Positions 17,872 through 23,609 of a DNA stretch of 64,000 bases are shown here, one piece after another. Position numbers and translations under genes: made by a program. Each line of letters starts with the position of its first letter. The first letter of the stretch is position 1. Source of the DNA: Nitrospinaceae bacterium. Lineage in GTDB: Bacteria > Nitrospinota > Nitrospinia > Nitrospinales > VA-1. Location of the stretch: NCBI GenBank assembly GCA_021604505.1, contig BQJC01000002.1, positions 496,001-560,000 of the forward strand, given 5' to 3'. A model generated the notes under the pieces. That model had not been told where the DNA came from, made no database searches, and saw only the letters and a list, made by a program, of their open reading frames with translations.

Positions 17872-19983
17872 TTGAAAAATACGATGATTATTGAAATTAA
17901 GCAACGTAATTATTACCAGGTGTTGGGGGTCAATCCGGATGCGTCGCAGAACGAAATCGACCACGCCTATAAAAGACTGATCAGCCGGTTCGATTCGGCG
18001 GGGTCGCGGCGATCGCCTAAGGTTCAGGCATCGCTTAAGGGAAAAATTGCGCTGCTGCAGGAAGCTTACGACACCCTTTCAAACCTGGAAAAACGCGATG
18101 AGCACGACCGTTTGATCGAGGAACAAGGAAAGAGCGCTTTGTCGCCGACGGCACTCACCGCTCCGGCATCTTTAAGGGATTGGGAAGTTTCAGCCGACAA
18201 TCGAAAGAACTCCGGCAATGTGTACCAGGATTATTTTGGTTTGTCGGAAAAACCCTTCGACCTGACTCCGGACCCCAAATACCTTTATTTAAGCCCCAAG
18301 CATAAAGAGGTGTTGGCTCATCTGGTCTATGGCATCCAGGAGAACAACGGTTTTCTTAAAATCGTTGGCGAAGTCGGAACCGGAAAGACCATGATTTGCA
18401 GAAGCTTCTTACGGGAATTGCACACCGACTTCAGTATCGCCTACATTTTTAATCCCGGAATCGACGAACTGGAGTTGTTGCAGACCATCAACGCCGAACT
18501 GGGACTGCCTTCTGAGAGCACCAGCAAGAAAAAACTTACAGACATCCTCAACCGTTTTTTGCTGGAGGAAAGGAAAAAAGGGCACCGGGTGGTGGTCATC
18601 ATCGATGAAGCCCAGGATCTGCTGCCCTCGGTTCTGGAACAACTCAGGCTTCTGTCGAATCTGGAAACCGAAACCGAAAAGCTGATTCAGATCGTGCTCA
18701 TCGGCCAACCGGAGTTGGAGAAAGTGCTGGCTCAGGAAGAACTTCGGCAGTTAAAGCAGCGTATCACGATTCAGTGGGAACTGCTTCCCCTGAATCTTGA
18801 AGAGACGCGCGGCTATATTCAGCATCGGTTAAACGTCGCTCTCGGCAAGGGAAAAGTGCAACTCACCCGTCCGGGGACCGATTTGATTTACAGATACTCC
18901 AAGGGCATCCCGCGGATGATCAACGTTCTGGCCGACCGGTCGCTGCTGATCGCGTACACCCAGAATACCAAGAAGATCAATTGTAAGATCATTCGCATGG
19001 CGGTTAAGGACATTGGCGGTCTCAAACCGGCGGCGGCTCCCATAGAAATATTTGGAAAGTTCGTGTTGCCGGTGGTTGCTTTGGCGGCCCTGGCATTTTT
19101 CATCATTCACGATTTTGCCCTGCCGGATTTAAAAACCAACCCAGCCAAGGGAAAAGACATTCCAAAAATCATTCAGGAAAATCCTATCGACCTGACCAAT
19201 CCCGGTCAGTTGCTTAAGGAGGATGAATTGGCAAAATTGCCGTCGATGGAGGCGTCTTCATCTTTGGAAAAACTGGATGTCATGCAAAAAATGGAGGTCG
19301 CTGCCCGACCGGAAAAAGCGTCTCACACGGGGCCCCTGGTTCTCACCCAGCCTGCAAAGCTGGTCACTTATCTTTCCAGCCTTTCCCTGGAAGAAAGCAA
19401 GCTGGAAGCGGCGAAGTGGATATTGGAAACCTGGGGTTTTGATCAATCGGGGGTTGAAATGGTGGATAACTGGGCTCTCGAAAACCTCGAGACGGAGTTC
19501 GAACTGTCGCAGTATGAATTGAACGGCAATTTCAAGCGCTTGACCAACCTCAATTACCCGGCCATTCTGGAGGTGGCGCTTCCCAATTCCCAGGGAACCA
19601 AATACCTGGCTTTGACCTCGGTGAAGGGCGAGCGCGGTGTTTTCGGTTCGGTCGATAAAATTGAAATGCCTTTAGAAACCATCAACCCGTTGTGGACCCG
19701 AAAAGCGATTATTATCTGGAAAGATTTTGAATCCCTGCCTGAAGCCGGTTTGGAAAATGGTTATGCGGGCAAGGAAGTGATCTGGTTGCAGAAAAACCTG
19801 CGTCTCCTGGGTTTCTTTATAGGCCGCGAAGCCGCGCGTTATGGAGGGCAAACGGAAAAAGCCGTGCGTAAATTTCAGCGCAAAAACAATATCAAAGACG
19901 ACGGCAAGTTTTCTACGGAAAGTAAAATGCTTCTATACAATCTGTTGGACATTTACAAAACTCCGAAGCTGATGGCGCCATGA
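17872..19983 (+). CDS. GspA/ExeA-like AAA ATPase with N-terminal J-like and C-terminal peptidoglycan-binding domains
   Basis: 703 residues. Residues ~13-80 resemble a DnaJ domain (YYQVLGVNPDASQNEIDHAYKRL) but the HPD tripeptide that stimulates DnaK is absent (RFDSAG at that place). Residues ~120-385 are an ExeA-type AAA+ ATPase with Walker A GEVGTGKT (166-173) and Walker B VVIIDEAQ. A membrane segment lies at ~396-414, then a periplasmic region with a degenerate C39-like segment and a C-terminal peptidoglycan-binding domain (~640-695, IWLQKNLRLLGFF). GspA-type proteins help insert the type II secretion secretin, or similar assemblies, through the cell wall. The TTG start has GGAAAA five bases upstream; ATG 17884 is an alternative. 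It overlaps the GspB-like gene by four bases. Confidence 0.85.
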   Translation: MKNTMIIEIKQRNYYQVLGVNPDASQNEIDHAYKRLISRFDSAGSRRSPKVQASLKGKIALLQEAYDTLSNLEKRDEHDRLIEEQGKSALSPTALTAPASLRDWEVSADNRKNSGNVYQDYFGLSEKPFDLTPDPKYLYLSPKHKEVLAHLVYGIQENNGFLKIVGEVGTGKTMICRSFLRELHTDFSIAYIFNPGIDELELLQTINAELGLPSESTSKKKLTDILNRFLLEERKKGHRVVVIIDEAQDLLPSVLEQLRLLSNLETETEKLIQIVLIGQPELEKVLAQEELRQLKQRITIQWELLPLNLEETRGYIQHRLNVALGKGKVQLTRPGTDLIYRYSKGIPRMINVLADRSLLIAYTQNTKKINCKIIRMAVKDIGGLKPAAAPIEIFGKFVLPVVALAALAFFIIHDFALPDLKTNPAKGKDIPKIIQENPIDLTNPGQLLKEDELAKLPSMEASSSLEKLDVMQKMEVAARPEKASHTGPLVLTQPAKLVTYLSSLSLEESKLEAAKWILETWGFDQSGVEMVDNWALENLETEFELSQYELNGNFKRLTNLNYPAILEVALPNSQGTKYLALTSVKGERGVFGSVDKIEMPLETINPLWTRKAIIIWKDFESLPEAGLENGYAGKEVIWLQKNLRLLGFFIGREAARYGGQTEKAVRKFQRKNNIKDDGKFSTESKMLLYNLLDIYKTPKLMAP

Positions 19984-20768
19984 GCACCATTCTCAACACG
20001 CTAAAGAAGCTGGAAGAAGAAAAAAGCGTCCTGGAAAAAAATATCGACCTCAAGGGATTGCTGTTGCAAGGCCAGGATTCTGCCTACCCGCAGGTGGAGC
20101 GGCAGGCGCCCAAAAAATGGGGAATTCTCGGGGGACTGATGGCAGGTGCGGTGTTGCTGGGAGTTGTGGTTTACTTTTTTTATTTATCAAAACCCGAGGC
20201 AACCCAACCGGAAAATTTTACTTTGCCCACTAAACCACAAGTGGCTCAGGAGAAGAAAAGACACTTGAAACCGGCGGCATCGAACCCTGGGATTCCGCTC
20301 GCCGGCATTCCGGAAACCGAGCCGGCGGCCATGGATGACCCCTGGAAGGATGAAGATTTTTTCGGTCCAGAGGACGCCCTGCCGCCAGAAGCCCTGCTTC
20401 CAATGGAGGAAATTCCCCGGACGGCAGCGGTGGAAGCTCCTGCCCTGGAAGGTTCCGAGGAAATCCGCGAGATCGAGAACCTGATTCAATCCGCGACCTC
20501 ATCCAGTGAGCTGGAAAAGCAAAATCTTGAGGAACCGGTTTCCAGATTGAGCGGCTTAAGACATGTGCCCGGAGTGAAACTCAAGGGAATTATTTTTTTC
20601 GGTTCTGGCAATCCCGCCAACCATGTTTTTGTCGCCACCGATGCGGAAAAAAACCGTAAACTGAAAGTGGGGGATACCGTTTTAAATGCCACCCTCGAAT
20701 CCATCGAAGCTAAGAAGGCCGTGTTTTCTTACGGCGGCCAATGGGTGGAAACCCTTATTGGCGACTGA
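19980..20768 (+). CDS. GspB/PulB-like general secretion accessory protein
   Basis: 262 residues. The N-terminus MSTILNTLKKLEEEK is the short cytoplasmic segment typical of GspB, followed by a membrane helix at ~47-68, a Pro/Glu-rich periplasmic stretch, and a C-terminal domain (residues ~195-260: GVKLKGIIFFGSG, LKVGDTVLNATLESIEAKKAVF) matching the GspB C-terminal fold. The start overlaps the GspA-like stop by four bases (ATGA), so the pair is translationally coupled, as known for GspA-GspB. No other type II secretion gene is present here, but a type IV pilus cluster lies at the right end. Confidence 0.85.
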   Translation: MSTILNTLKKLEEEKSVLEKNIDLKGLLLQGQDSAYPQVERQAPKKWGILGGLMAGAVLLGVVVYFFYLSKPEATQPENFTLPTKPQVAQEKKRHLKPAASNPGIPLAGIPETEPAAMDDPWKDEDFFGPEDALPPEALLPMEEIPRTAAVEAPALEGSEEIREIENLIQSATSSSELEKQNLEEPVSRLSGLRHVPGVKLKGIIFFGSGNPANHVFVATDAEKNRKLKVGDTVLNATLESIEAKKAVFSYGGQWVETLIGD

Positions 20769-20801
20769 CCGCGCTGTCCTGCCTTTCTGGATTGCTGCTT
20801 C

Positions 20802-22115
20802 TCAATTAGCGATGCAATTTTGAAATTGCATCAAACGCATCGGATTGCCGCGAATTTTCAACTTGCCAGATAAAACAGGCCATAACGGGGATGACTGGCG
20901 TCCGGCAATTTTGAGCCAGGTTTTGGTGTCTGCCAGTACCTTGAGGCCGGCGTTGCCTTCGTGCCCTTCCTGCACCGCGATTTTCCCACCGGCGACAGTT
21001 ACCGTGATTGTACGTTCCTCCTCACCTGTAAAAGTAAAATGGATGGCGAGAGTCAGATCCCTGGCTTTTTCGCGGTTGAAAGCTATTTTGATTCCGTTGA
21101 TAAAGCCTTCAAGCGACTGGGGTCGAAACGGAGTGCGAACGTAACGAATTTCCTTATTTGGATTTTTTTTCGCCACCTTTTCCGCGGTGGTTCCCGGTTT
21201 CACATAGACAGGCTCCGGCTGGTTTTTTAGAGGTTTTACAATCTCGGTCACATATGTTTTCTTGTCTTCCTGAAAAAAAGGCAGGACCTCCTCCCCTGCC
21301 GGGCACACCGCCATGCAATAAGCGGCTTTGTAATTAGAGCCAAAAGAAAGCGATTGCCAGATCGACAGGGTCTCGCTGTCCTTAAACTTTGAACGGTACT
21401 CTTGCACATTTTTAGAGTCGACTATTTCTTCCGTCCAATCCTGAAACCCGCCCATGAATTCGCGGTAGTTGTGATTGTAACAGGAAGAAAAATCAAACTC
21501 CCCGTTGGAATGAATGGCGCCGACCGGACAGGCTGACACGCAAAGGTTACAGGTCAGGCAGGGGTTATAGTCGAGCGGCTTGTCATAGCGGTCCATCTCT
21601 GCATCGATCAGGATTGACTCCAGAAGAATGAAATTTCCAAACTGAGGGTGTATGACGTTGCGGTTTTTCCCCATGCGTCCCATCCCAGCCTCTTCAGCCA
21701 TGCGTTTGTGGCTGACGTCCCAGATTTTGAGCGTTCCCCACCGGTTCATGTCCATCGGAAACCCGACGGTGGGCACGACCCCACGCACGCCGTGTTTGTT
21801 GAGACGCTTGACGATTCTGCGGGCGATTTGCGTGAGGTCTTCGATGGTTTTATGAAATTCGTCGTTGGCGACATAGCGCGCCGGGCTTTGAATGTTTTCC
21901 CGGTTCATGACCTGCACCAAAGAGATGACCGTGCGCGTGCGCCCAAAAACGTGCAGGATATCCTTGCGCTCCGAGTCGAGAGAGGGGCGGTCAATTTCGA
22001 TACACCCCATATCATCGGCCCCCTCCTCCCTACAAATGGCTCTCAACCAATCGGCGGATTGAACGGTTTTTGTTGCCACGGCCTTCTTTTCTTTAACCGT
22101 TTCTATAGTTTGCAT
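20802..22115 (-). CDS. Ferredoxin-type [4Fe-4S] protein (QueG/reductive-dehalogenase-like) fused to a SCP2-like domain
   Basis: 437 residues. The N-terminal ~170 residues resemble the cobalamin-binding part of epoxyqueuosine reductase and reductive dehalogenases. A four-cysteine cluster follows at C186-C189-C192-C196-P, and C212, C267, C271-P are candidates for a second, non-canonical cluster. Residues ~330-435 look like an SCP2 sterol/lipid-carrier domain (IHFTFTGEEERTITVTV). It may be a redox enzyme acting on a hydrophobic substrate, but no reaction is assigned. ATG 22115 has AGGAGA nine bases upstream, and a perfect 12-base palindrome lies at 22137-22148. The MarR gene lies 51 bases upstream on the same strand, so the two probably form a regulated unit. 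Confidence 0.75.
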   Translation of the reverse strand: MQTIETVKEKKAVATKTVQSADWLRAICREEGADDMGCIEIDRPSLDSERKDILHVFGRTRTVISLVQVMNRENIQSPARYVANDEFHKTIEDLTQIARRIVKRLNKHGVRGVVPTVGFPMDMNRWGTLKIWDVSHKRMAEEAGMGRMGKNRNVIHPQFGNFILLESILIDAEMDRYDKPLDYNPCLTCNLCVSACPVGAIHSNGEFDFSSCYNHNYREFMGGFQDWTEEIVDSKNVQEYRSKFKDSETLSIWQSLSFGSNYKAAYCMAVCPAGEEVLPFFQEDKKTYVTEIVKPLKNQPEPVYVKPGTTAEKVAKKNPNKEIRYVRTPFRPQSLEGFINGIKIAFNREKARDLTLAIHFTFTGEEERTITVTVAGGKIAVQEGHEGNAGLKVLADTKTWLKIAGRQSSPLWPVLSGKLKIRGNPMRLMQFQNCIAN

Positions 22116-22136
22116 AATTGAAAATCTCCTTATTTA

Positions 22137-22148
22137 GTGTATATACAC
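22137..22148. promoter_or_regulatory. Palindromic candidate MarR operator
   Basis: GTGTATATACAC is a perfect 12-base palindrome 21 bases upstream of the ferredoxin-SCP2 gene. The same sequence with one mismatch occurs in front of marR (22621-22632). Confidence 0.6.
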
Positions 22149-22165
22149 ATATTTTGATAAATTTT

Positions 22166-22615
22166 TTAAGTCGGACCAAGAAGCTTGATGGTTGAATCCA
22201 GATTTTTAAGCAGTTCCTTCCAGCGTTTGGGGGTCAGGCGTTCGATCACCTGCGCCTGTGCCCGGTTCCAGTAAGGGAGGGCTTTTTTAAGGGTTTTCTG
22301 TCCCTTGTCTGTCAGGGTCAAATTACGGGTGCGGCGGTCCTCCCCCGGAACAATTTTGACCAGCTTTTGAGTCTCCAGCGGTTTCAGGTTGCGGGTCAAG
22401 GTGGTTCGGTCCATGACCAGCGCCTGGGAAAGCTTGCGGACAGCCACCGGACCGAGGGAGGCCAACGCGGCTAAAAGCGTGAACTGTGTGGCTCGAAGTC
22501 CCGAGGGTTGCATCATCTCATCGAACAACTGAGTGACGGTGCGTGTGGCTTTTCTCAGGTTGAAACAGGTACATTCATGGACCGCATATTTCGGTTGTGA
22601 TTTTTTGTGGGTCAT
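22166..22615 (-). CDS. MarR-family transcriptional regulator
   Basis: 149 residues. The winged-helix core includes LRATQFTLLAALASLGPVAV and the wing LVKIVPGEDRRTRNLTLTDKG (residues ~38-115), flanked by dimer helices. The N-terminus CTCFNLRKATRTVTQLFDEM is found in the MarR subfamily with a Cys pair near the start. On the minus strand a promoter TTGACA-N16-TATACT precedes the ATG by only six bases, so transcription could start at or next to the start codon. A near-copy of the palindrome upstream of the ferredoxin gene overlaps that -10. Autorepression and control of the downstream Fe-S gene are inferred from this. Confidence 0.9.
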   Translation of the reverse strand: MTHKKSQPKYAVHECTCFNLRKATRTVTQLFDEMMQPSGLRATQFTLLAALASLGPVAVRKLSQALVMDRTTLTRNLKPLETQKLVKIVPGEDRRTRNLTLTDKGQKTLKKALPYWNRAQAQVIERLTPKRWKELLKNLDSTIKLLGPT

Positions 22616-22620
22616 AATAG

Positions 22621-22649
22621 GAGTATATACACATAAATTTTTCTGTCAA
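22621..22649 (-). promoter_or_regulatory. marR promoter with overlapping MarR-type operator; leaderless
   Basis: On the minus strand: -35 TTGACA (plus 22644-22649), 16-base spacer, -10 TATACT (plus 22622-22627), then six bases to the marR ATG. The palindrome (22621-22632) covers the -10 and differs from the perfect copy at 22137 in one base. No ribosome site fits in the six-base gap. Confidence 0.6.
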
Positions 22650-22700
22650 CCCCTCTTTTGAGGCAAACGCATGGTCCGGCCTCAGCCCTGAAGCCAAACT

Positions 22701-23168
22701 CTAGGGTTTGATGTACAGGTAACCTTGTTCCTGAAGGTCGGCGATACGCTTGACGGCAACAGGGTGTTCCGTGGGTATGAATCCATCGGCAAGAGCGTCC
22801 AGCCCTTTATTGAACAGTTTCATGGAAACCTGGCACATTTCCGGTTCCACCCCGCGGTCAATGACCGTTTTCAGTTTTTTGAGAAGTTTTGGGTCTACGT
22901 CCTCTTTGTCAAACAAGTTCAGAGCCGGCCCGTGGACGACCACTTTGACATCGATTTTATCCAGGCCGCCTTCGGCTTCGATGTGTTTATCGATGAGAGC
23001 CATGGCGTAAGTGGCGACAGCGACATCCGCTCCGTCGATGTGGTAAAGAACCTTGAGTTTTCCATCGGCGGTGCGGTGGCTTTTGGTGTCCGCATGGCTC
23101 ACCCCGGCGCTGGTCAGTGCCGCAATCAGAATAAAAACCGAAAGGAAACGCACAGTCAACTTGTTCAT
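22701..23168 (-). CDS. Periplasmic DsrE/DsrF-family protein
   Basis: 155 residues with a signal peptide (cleavage near VSHADTKS) and a DsrE-like domain: a first strand KVLYHIDGAD, a helix, a second strand DVKVVVHGPALNLF, and MCQVSMKLF containing the single Cys where DsrE-type proteins carry a sulfur-handling Cys. Such proteins handle sulfur transfer or related periplasmic redox chemistry. ATG 23168 follows a perfect AGGAGG. It lies 85 bases from marR, oriented the same way, but no shared promoter is evident. The exact role is unknown. Confidence 0.8.
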   Translation of the reverse strand: MNKLTVRFLSVFILIAALTSAGVSHADTKSHRTADGKLKVLYHIDGADVAVATYAMALIDKHIEAEGGLDKIDVKVVVHGPALNLFDKEDVDPKLLKKLKTVIDRGVEPEMCQVSMKLFNKGLDALADGFIPTEHPVAVKRIADLQEQGYLYIKP

Positions 23169-23237
23169 GATGTCCTCCTGTAGATTCTCATTGAAAGTGT
23201 CAAATCGGGCGCCAGCTCTTTGAGGATGCCAGATTTT

Positions 23238-23609
23238 TCAATCCTTCAACGCCGGTAAATCGTTGAAGGAAATTTTGGCTCCTGGATAACCACGATCCAG
23301 AAGGATATCGATCACTTGTTTGATGGCTTTAACATGGCGCTTCCTTGAATCCACGCCGTCAAAGTGCGGGTCTTCTTCTTCAATTGAAATCACACCGGGG
23401 GCAACGAAGTTGCAATAAAACGCCCCAAGAGGCCTGAGTGAGTTTTCGGAATCGTCGGCTGAGCCGGAGTTGACGACCATCATCGTCATATTGCAATCCG
23501 GGCTGGGATAAACCTCAAACAGGCCGCCGCTGTTTATCGTGTGTTCCCGGCAGTAGTCGATGACCCTTTCAACATCCTCAATAGAAACGGCTTTATAAAC
23601 TGCGTGCAT
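23238..23609 (-). CDS. Uncharacterised cytoplasmic protein
   Basis: 123 residues, not recognised. It looks like a compact alpha/beta domain: MHAVYKAVSIEDVERVIDYC, then strands LFEVYPSPDCNMTMMVV and GAFYCNFVAPGVISI, and a final helix HVKAIKQVIDILLDRGY. Three Cys are present but do not form a clear metal set. ATG 23609 has AGGAAAG upstream. The stop lies 70 bases from the DsrE gene start on the same strand, so a weak operon is possible. Confidence 0.6.
   Translation of the reverse strand: MHAVYKAVSIEDVERVIDYCREHTINSGGLFEVYPSPDCNMTMMVVNSGSADDSENSLRPLGAFYCNFVAPGVISIEEEDPHFDGVDSRKRHVKAIKQVIDILLDRGYPGAKISFNDLPALKD

Follow-up and report, generated by a model that had tools for sequence, protein, structure and literature searches.

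The window analyzed here, a 64,000-nucleotide stretch of a Nitrospinaceae bacterium genome (GenBank assembly GCA_021604505.1, contig BQJC01000002.1, positions 496,001 to 560,000 of the forward strand), carries on its minus strand a small gene, marR (22166..22615), whose 149-aa product is assigned by its open reading frame, family profile and fold model to the MarR family of winged-helix proteins and which is predicted to be leaderless. Its promoter, read from the sequence, combines the -35 element TTGACA (22644..22649, minus strand) with the -10 element TATACT (22622..22627, minus strand), the latter lying within a putative operator, O1 (22621..22632, minus strand), that was delineated by pattern search and conservation. 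O1 reads GAGTATATACAC on the plus strand and GTGTATATACTC in the marR sense, and differs from the palindrome GTGTATATACAC by a single mismatch, which improves the -10. The perfect palindrome, found by pattern search at 22137..22148 (minus strand), forms a second putative operator, O2, 17 nt past the marR stop codon. The sequence-only reading had described a palindrome that is perfect before the Fe-S gene and carries one mismatch over the marR -10, and this is exactly what is found at 22137-22148 and 22621-22632. In front of O2 lies a degenerate A6T3 tract (22159..22167, minus strand), at the site where 32 of 50 O2-bearing loci have a run of at least six T residues.

The putative target gene (20802..22115, minus strand) is located downstream of marR on the same strand, across a gap of 50 nt, so that the two genes are not divergent; it is preceded by a Shine-Dalgarno sequence of its own, AAGGAG (22126..22131, minus strand). 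It encodes a 437-aa protein with 4Fe-4S motifs like those of QueG and reductive dehalogenases and a C-terminal SCP2 domain. Its scores against the NCBIfam models for QueG and reductive dehalogenase (61.3 and 42.2 bits) do not reach the respective cut-offs of 200 and 160.35, and judged by these profiles the protein is related to both families but belongs to neither. Directly upstream of marR, 85 nt from its ATG, is a DsrE-family gene with a signal-like N-terminus (22701-23168, minus strand). On the plus strand, positions 17872-20768 hold an ORF with a DnaJ-like start, an AAA ATPase domain and a peptidoglycan-binding-like end, followed by a GspB-like ORF; the two presumably resemble the ExeA/GspA-GspB proteins.

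The marR product scores above the gathering cut-offs of both Pfam entries PF12802 (33.3 bits, cut-off 27) and PF01047 (24.8 bits, cut-off 24.6). An assignment to the NCBIfam BagL/FevM family was rejected, the score of 48 bits being below the cut-off of 230. The closest solved structure by sequence is MosR (4fx0, E value 7e-33), and the best fold match of the protein model (pLDDT 87) is DNA-bound MosR (4fx4), with 34% identity in the fold alignment. The stretch RTTLTRNL in the recognition helix is identical in MosR (Rv1049 of Mycobacterium tuberculosis, PDB entries 4fx0 and 4fx4) and in the marR protein. The only cysteines of the latter, Cys15 and Cys17, form the Cys-x-Cys arrangement at the start of helix 1 that is typical of MosR and align there with MosR Cys10 and Cys12, which form a redox disulphide according to the cited account (PMC5823404). 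The same account gives Cys22/Cys127 as the OhrR pair; a two-Cys OhrR mechanism was rejected for the marR protein, whose helix 5 has no partner cysteine around residue 127. In the alignment of 16 orthologues (of the 18 relatives from the order, L015 and L019 were left out as divergent), Cys15 is found in all 16 sequences and Cys17 in 13; its replacement in the other three means that disulphide sensing cannot be universal. The likeness to MosR lies at the level of protein sequence and fold, and the targets differ, a secreted oxidoreductase in the case of MosR and an Fe-S/SCP2 protein here. The marR protein resembles the redox-sensing MosR, and this homology makes a redox response plausible.

At up to two mismatches, the palindrome is found twice in the window versus 0.30 expected, a count of two being reached in 4 of 100 shuffles. 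The entire genome (3.64 Mb) contains it at only three places with up to one mismatch: O1, O2 and a third one (G000:C2:634556) inside an ORF. Exact copies are present, one each, in 6 of 60 genomes (this one included), and all 6 adjoin a marR homologue; the reversed control pattern is present in 2 of the 60. By these counts, the O1/O2 pair is not due to chance, and the regulator looks to be acting locally. A wider regulon was considered and rejected, as the genome holds just two intergenic sites at up to one mismatch. No match for GTGTATATACAC was found in the literature searched.

Within the order, 17 of 64 genomes encode relatives of the marR protein (E value up to 1e-15). When one named genome per species was scanned, 245 relatives turned up and the 80 best were retained; by their record titles, these span Nitrospinota, cyanobacteria, proteobacteria, Nitrospirota, Dadabacteria and others. 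Together with four further relatives they make up the discovery set of 84 loci, 42 of them below 75% protein identity (the dereplicated set). The second sample consisted of 59 loci from other genomes, the best-scoring among the matches listed, which were reduced to 51 by removal of 8 duplicates; L110 to L115, already in the first set, were excluded by hand. A search of the cyanobacterial phylum matched 2 of 292 genomes and added a single locus, a duplicate. With up to two mismatches allowed, O1 is present in 36, O2 in 34 and both in 32 of the 42 dereplicated loci. The chance of an O2-type site in a stretch of the same size is 0.3% under a Markov model and 1.4% in other stretches of the same loci. 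O1 is absent from 20 and O2 from 35 of the 51 best-scoring loci that make up the second sample. The idea that O1 is the weaker site was rejected as not robust, since the pairs for and against it number 11 and 9 among the dereplicated loci (p 0.82) and 31 and 14 (p 0.016) in the 70 usable of the 84 loci. One locus, L093, has O2 but no O1 next to a bacterial-type marR on a contig labelled Thaumarchaeota, probably a binning error.

The sequence-only reading had also proposed that the promoter puts the start of transcription at or beside the marR ATG and that the regulator is translated without a leader. The TTGACA-N16-TATACT promoter matches 11 of 12 consensus bases, and only six bases separate its -10 from the ATG at 22615, so that the +1 is predicted, from geometry and conservation, to fall on the A of that ATG (22615, minus strand). 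It is the only sigma70-like site found in positions 20750-23250; shuffles of this region give 1.5, so the count is not above chance and the weight of the promoter comes from its place and conservation. Between the upstream stop codon and the conserved CTCFNLRK motif of helix 1 there is no other in-frame ATG, GTG or TTG, and the AUG start in the window is not preceded by a Shine-Dalgarno sequence. A sigma70 promoter with a 17-nt spacer is expected to start RNA ~29 nt past the -35, and loci in which 28 to 33 nt separate the end of the -35 from the ATG are therefore leaderless by geometry. This was found in 23 of the 37 dereplicated loci with O1 (at up to three mismatches, of 42), 9 of them exactly at 29 (one of the 23, L073, at a distance of 33, has no real -35); 13 have a distance of at least 46, one lacks an ATG, and none falls at 34-45. 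In the full set of 84 loci, 78 have O1 (L015, where O1 was not parsed, is counted as lacking it), with the distance at 27-33 in 59, at least 46 in 18, one without an ATG and none in between. The loci L038 (Chlorogloeopsis fritschii PCC 6912) and L055 (Calothrix sp. PCC 7103), for instance, show distances of 30 and 29 nt, and both have T7 in front of O2. Within the leaderless group the gap between operator and ATG ranges from 3 to 10 nt while the distance from -35 to ATG stays near 29, which ties the ATG to the promoter, not to the operator. Shine-Dalgarno-like 4-mers precede none of the 23 leaderless genes, 6 of the 13 leadered ones and 38 of the 43 scorable target genes (of 50), and a -35 at 28-32 was found for 13 of 236 control ORFs versus 22 of 42 marR genes.

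The second sample behaves similarly where it can be scored: 31 of the 51 loci have O1, and the distance count was confined to 17 of these, whose -35 has at most one mismatch; 13 show 29-33 nt and 4 show 59-97. The other 14 O1 loci have no good -35, and their distances of 19-86 are unreliable; 4 of these, if their values of 37-43 are taken as they stand, fall between both groups. On a protein tree of 93 sequences (34 scored leaderless and 15 leadered), at least 11 changes between the two states are needed, the tree being poorly resolved (11 of 90 inner branches starred). The geometry that predicts a start of transcription at the ATG is conserved in those 23 of 37 loci, and conservation across relatives likewise speaks for leaderless translation of the regulator. 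Leaderless transcription of marR as a self-repressor appears well supported. It is known that the repressor genes cI of lambda and tetR of Tn1721 are leaderless, with transcripts starting at the AUG; in contrast to these cases, the marR geometry and its operator have been conserved jointly in several phyla. No leaderless MarR autorepressor was found in the literature, among the matches listed.

O2 differs from O1 in its surroundings. A -35 within one mismatch accompanies O2 in 1 of 34 loci of the discovery set (shuffles give 1.7) and in 0 of 16 of the second sample, compared with 33 of 36 at O1, and sigma70-like sites near O2 number 5 in 50 loci versus 6.4 expected, those near O1 22 in 35 versus 4.8 expected. 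The change of TATACA to TATACT or a similar, better -10 is seen in 13 of 32 copies of O1 and in 0 of 32 copies of O2. The place of O2 is nearly fixed, with 15-24 nt between the stop codon of marR and the operator in 38 of the 50 loci. The new element, as it emerges from these comparisons, would be O2 itself, an operator with no recognizable promoter, at a near-fixed distance past a stop codon and with a T-tract in most loci.

Runs of at least six T residues precede O2 in 21 of 34 discovery loci and 11 of 16 loci of the second sample (32 of 50 together); where O2 is missing, such a run was seen in 0 of 8 and 2 of 35 cases in these two sets, and it follows 7 of 253 control stop codons; in the second sample, the association of tract and O2 has a Fisher p of 5.6e-6. 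Over the 50 loci, bases -17 to -11 before O2 are 75% T and 15% A. The tract is centred ~14 nt before O2, and 18 of the 37 runs of at least five T residues leave exactly 10 nt to the operator. Where O2 is located 25 nt or more past the stop codon, such a run is kept in only 3 of 10 loci. In the window (A6T3), L002 and L090, A-runs followed by T3 are found instead of the T run. No excess of hairpins over shuffled sequence was detected upstream of the tract (mean z -0.10, n=37), and 7 of 37 tracts abut a predicted stem of at least four pairs. On well-supported branches of the tree, the contrasts in O2 come to only 3 independent ones, a number that does not suffice for a test of its association with T. 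Among the matches listed in the literature, none describes a U- or T-tract paired with a bacterial repressor. In L030 (at the same place as L003), whose marR is 79% identical to that of the window, T8 stays after the stop codon and O2 is gone.

The proteins encoded behind O2 vary. Of 66 such proteins, 28 belong to the Fe-S/SCP2 cluster of the window and 7 are singletons; the other clusters, named from reading their sequences, comprise 10 (small membrane proteins), 6 and 4 (transport-like), 4 (SDR-like), 3 (NmrA-like), 2 and 2 members. This distribution suggests that the target is an exchangeable stress-response gene.

These features could be combined in a self-contained repressor-target cassette with self-repression at O1, a leaderless marR, a roadblock to read-through at O2 and release by a signal, a scheme that we consider somewhat probable as a whole. 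The MarR-family protein would bind O1 over its own -10 and limit its own transcription, and the marR transcript, with its 5' end at the AUG or a few bases from it, would be translated without a leader. The target gene, with its own Shine-Dalgarno sequence, would be reached mainly by polymerase reading on from the marR promoter, and repressor bound at O2 behind the marR stop codon would halt that polymerase. Going by known roadblocks, polymerase is expected to stall ~14-15 bp before the site, and this point falls in the T-tract; in most O2-bearing relatives the stalled polymerase would sit on this hairpin-less tract, which could aid release of the RNA. Both genes would be turned on when a signal frees the repressor; plausible candidates are oxidation or an electrophile that, as in MosR, targets the N-terminal Cys pair. 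The earlier proposal that the regulator represses itself and its neighbour stands in its first part, which fits the paired operators and their conservation; control of the neighbour through O2 probably works otherwise than by the repression envisaged there, as O2 overlaps no recognizable promoter.

A promoter at O2 of the usual kind was rejected for want of a -35 and of any excess of promoter-like sites. It could still be argued that O2 overlaps a real but non-consensus target promoter, one that is weak, lacks a -35 or has the T-tract instead, and that the repressor blocks initiation there: the palindrome offers a suitably placed TATACA/TACACT, and the tract occupies the place that a -35 would take, its position being weakly correlated with how far the -35 is spaced at O1 (n=22; Spearman 0.42, p 0.05; Pearson 0.28, p 0.22). 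However, 49 of 50 O2 loci lack a -35 within one mismatch and sigma70-like sites are not in excess, the A-to-T change that would improve a -10 occurs at O1 and never at O2, and a promoter would have no need to keep so constant a spacing to the stop codon ahead of it, all of which makes such a promoter rather unlikely. An ordinary intrinsic terminator of marR, with the tract as its U-tract and O2 as an operator that happens to be nearby, would account for T6-T8 right past the stop codon and for the few tracts that abut a stem, but the RNA ahead of the tract shows no better folding than shuffled controls and the tract goes with O2; with no hairpin excess, this was rejected as a general explanation and is very improbable. 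As for the start of marR, the main transcript in the cell could come from upstream, for example from the codirectional gene 22701-23168, with the promoter at the ATG being a minor one. The missing Shine-Dalgarno sequence, the 11 of 12 consensus bases and the leaderless geometry kept in 23 of 37 loci make a leadered marR improbable; the 14 unscorable loci of the second sample and a promoter count not above chance lend it slightly more weight.

O2 is best explained, we infer, by a plain roadblock that controls read-through. A further step, which we regard as doubtful, would be that the repressor makes its own terminator: when bound at O2, it would hold polymerase over the U-tract that, without a hairpin, immediately follows the stop codon of marR, as a bacterial counterpart of the roadblock and T-rich terminator of RNA polymerase I. 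If so, the marR mRNA would extend from the AUG to a few U residues past the stop codon, with neither a 5' nor a 3' untranslated region, its 3' end would exist only while the repressor is bound, and a terminator made of a roadblock and a T-tract would have been kept across several phyla, joined to exchangeable targets. In the Pol I terminator (Reb1/Nsi1/TTF1), as outlined in the cited source, the T-rich stretch precedes the roadblock site by ~15 bp (PMC12366685), comparable to the ~14 nt seen here, although the polymerase is different and the likeness is an analogy only; that terminator is also said there to need a hairpin, whereas the marR tract shows none.

Roadblocks by bacterial repressors have precedents. 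A roadblock function is reported for GbsR, a MarR-type protein of B. subtilis (PMC7396694), C.Kpn2I and LacI bound downstream of the start stop elongating polymerase (PMC6237814, PMC4132739), and transcripts of trpR are terminated by YtgR at an operator located between this gene and trpBA (PMC6504234). The cited passages on GbsR, C.Kpn2I, YtgR and LacI describe neither a conserved T-tract paired with the operator nor a leaderless regulator gene. One of these sources names the sequence upstream of the roadblock as a likely factor beyond those that it tested (PMC4132739), and the layout of O2 and T-tract could serve to test whether upstream sequence sets the chance of termination at a roadblock. 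Similarly, a near-fixed distance from promoter to AUG over several phyla, combined with a sliding operator, allows one to test whether leaderless translation is under selection.

Several loci depart from the common pattern. In L045 (at the same place as L008), the leaderless ATG is kept and followed by CAA TAG, and a second ATG behind GGGAG provides the usable start, which looks like a switch from the leaderless to the leadered state caught midway. In two Nostoc loci, L042 and L054, the leadered start is preceded by an ATG that occupies the leaderless position in another frame and would open a short ORF overlapping marR. Such vestigial ATGs at the leaderless place of leadered genes (L042, L045, L054 and L085) may be due to chance. 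The more distant homologues L116 (TTGnATATACAA) and L167 (ATGCATATACAT) have differing palindromes at both sites, as if operator and recognition helix had changed together. The T-tract is kept before both changed palindromes, as T8 in L116 (TTGTATATACAA) and as T7 in L167, whose palindrome has three mismatches and was scored as lacking O2.
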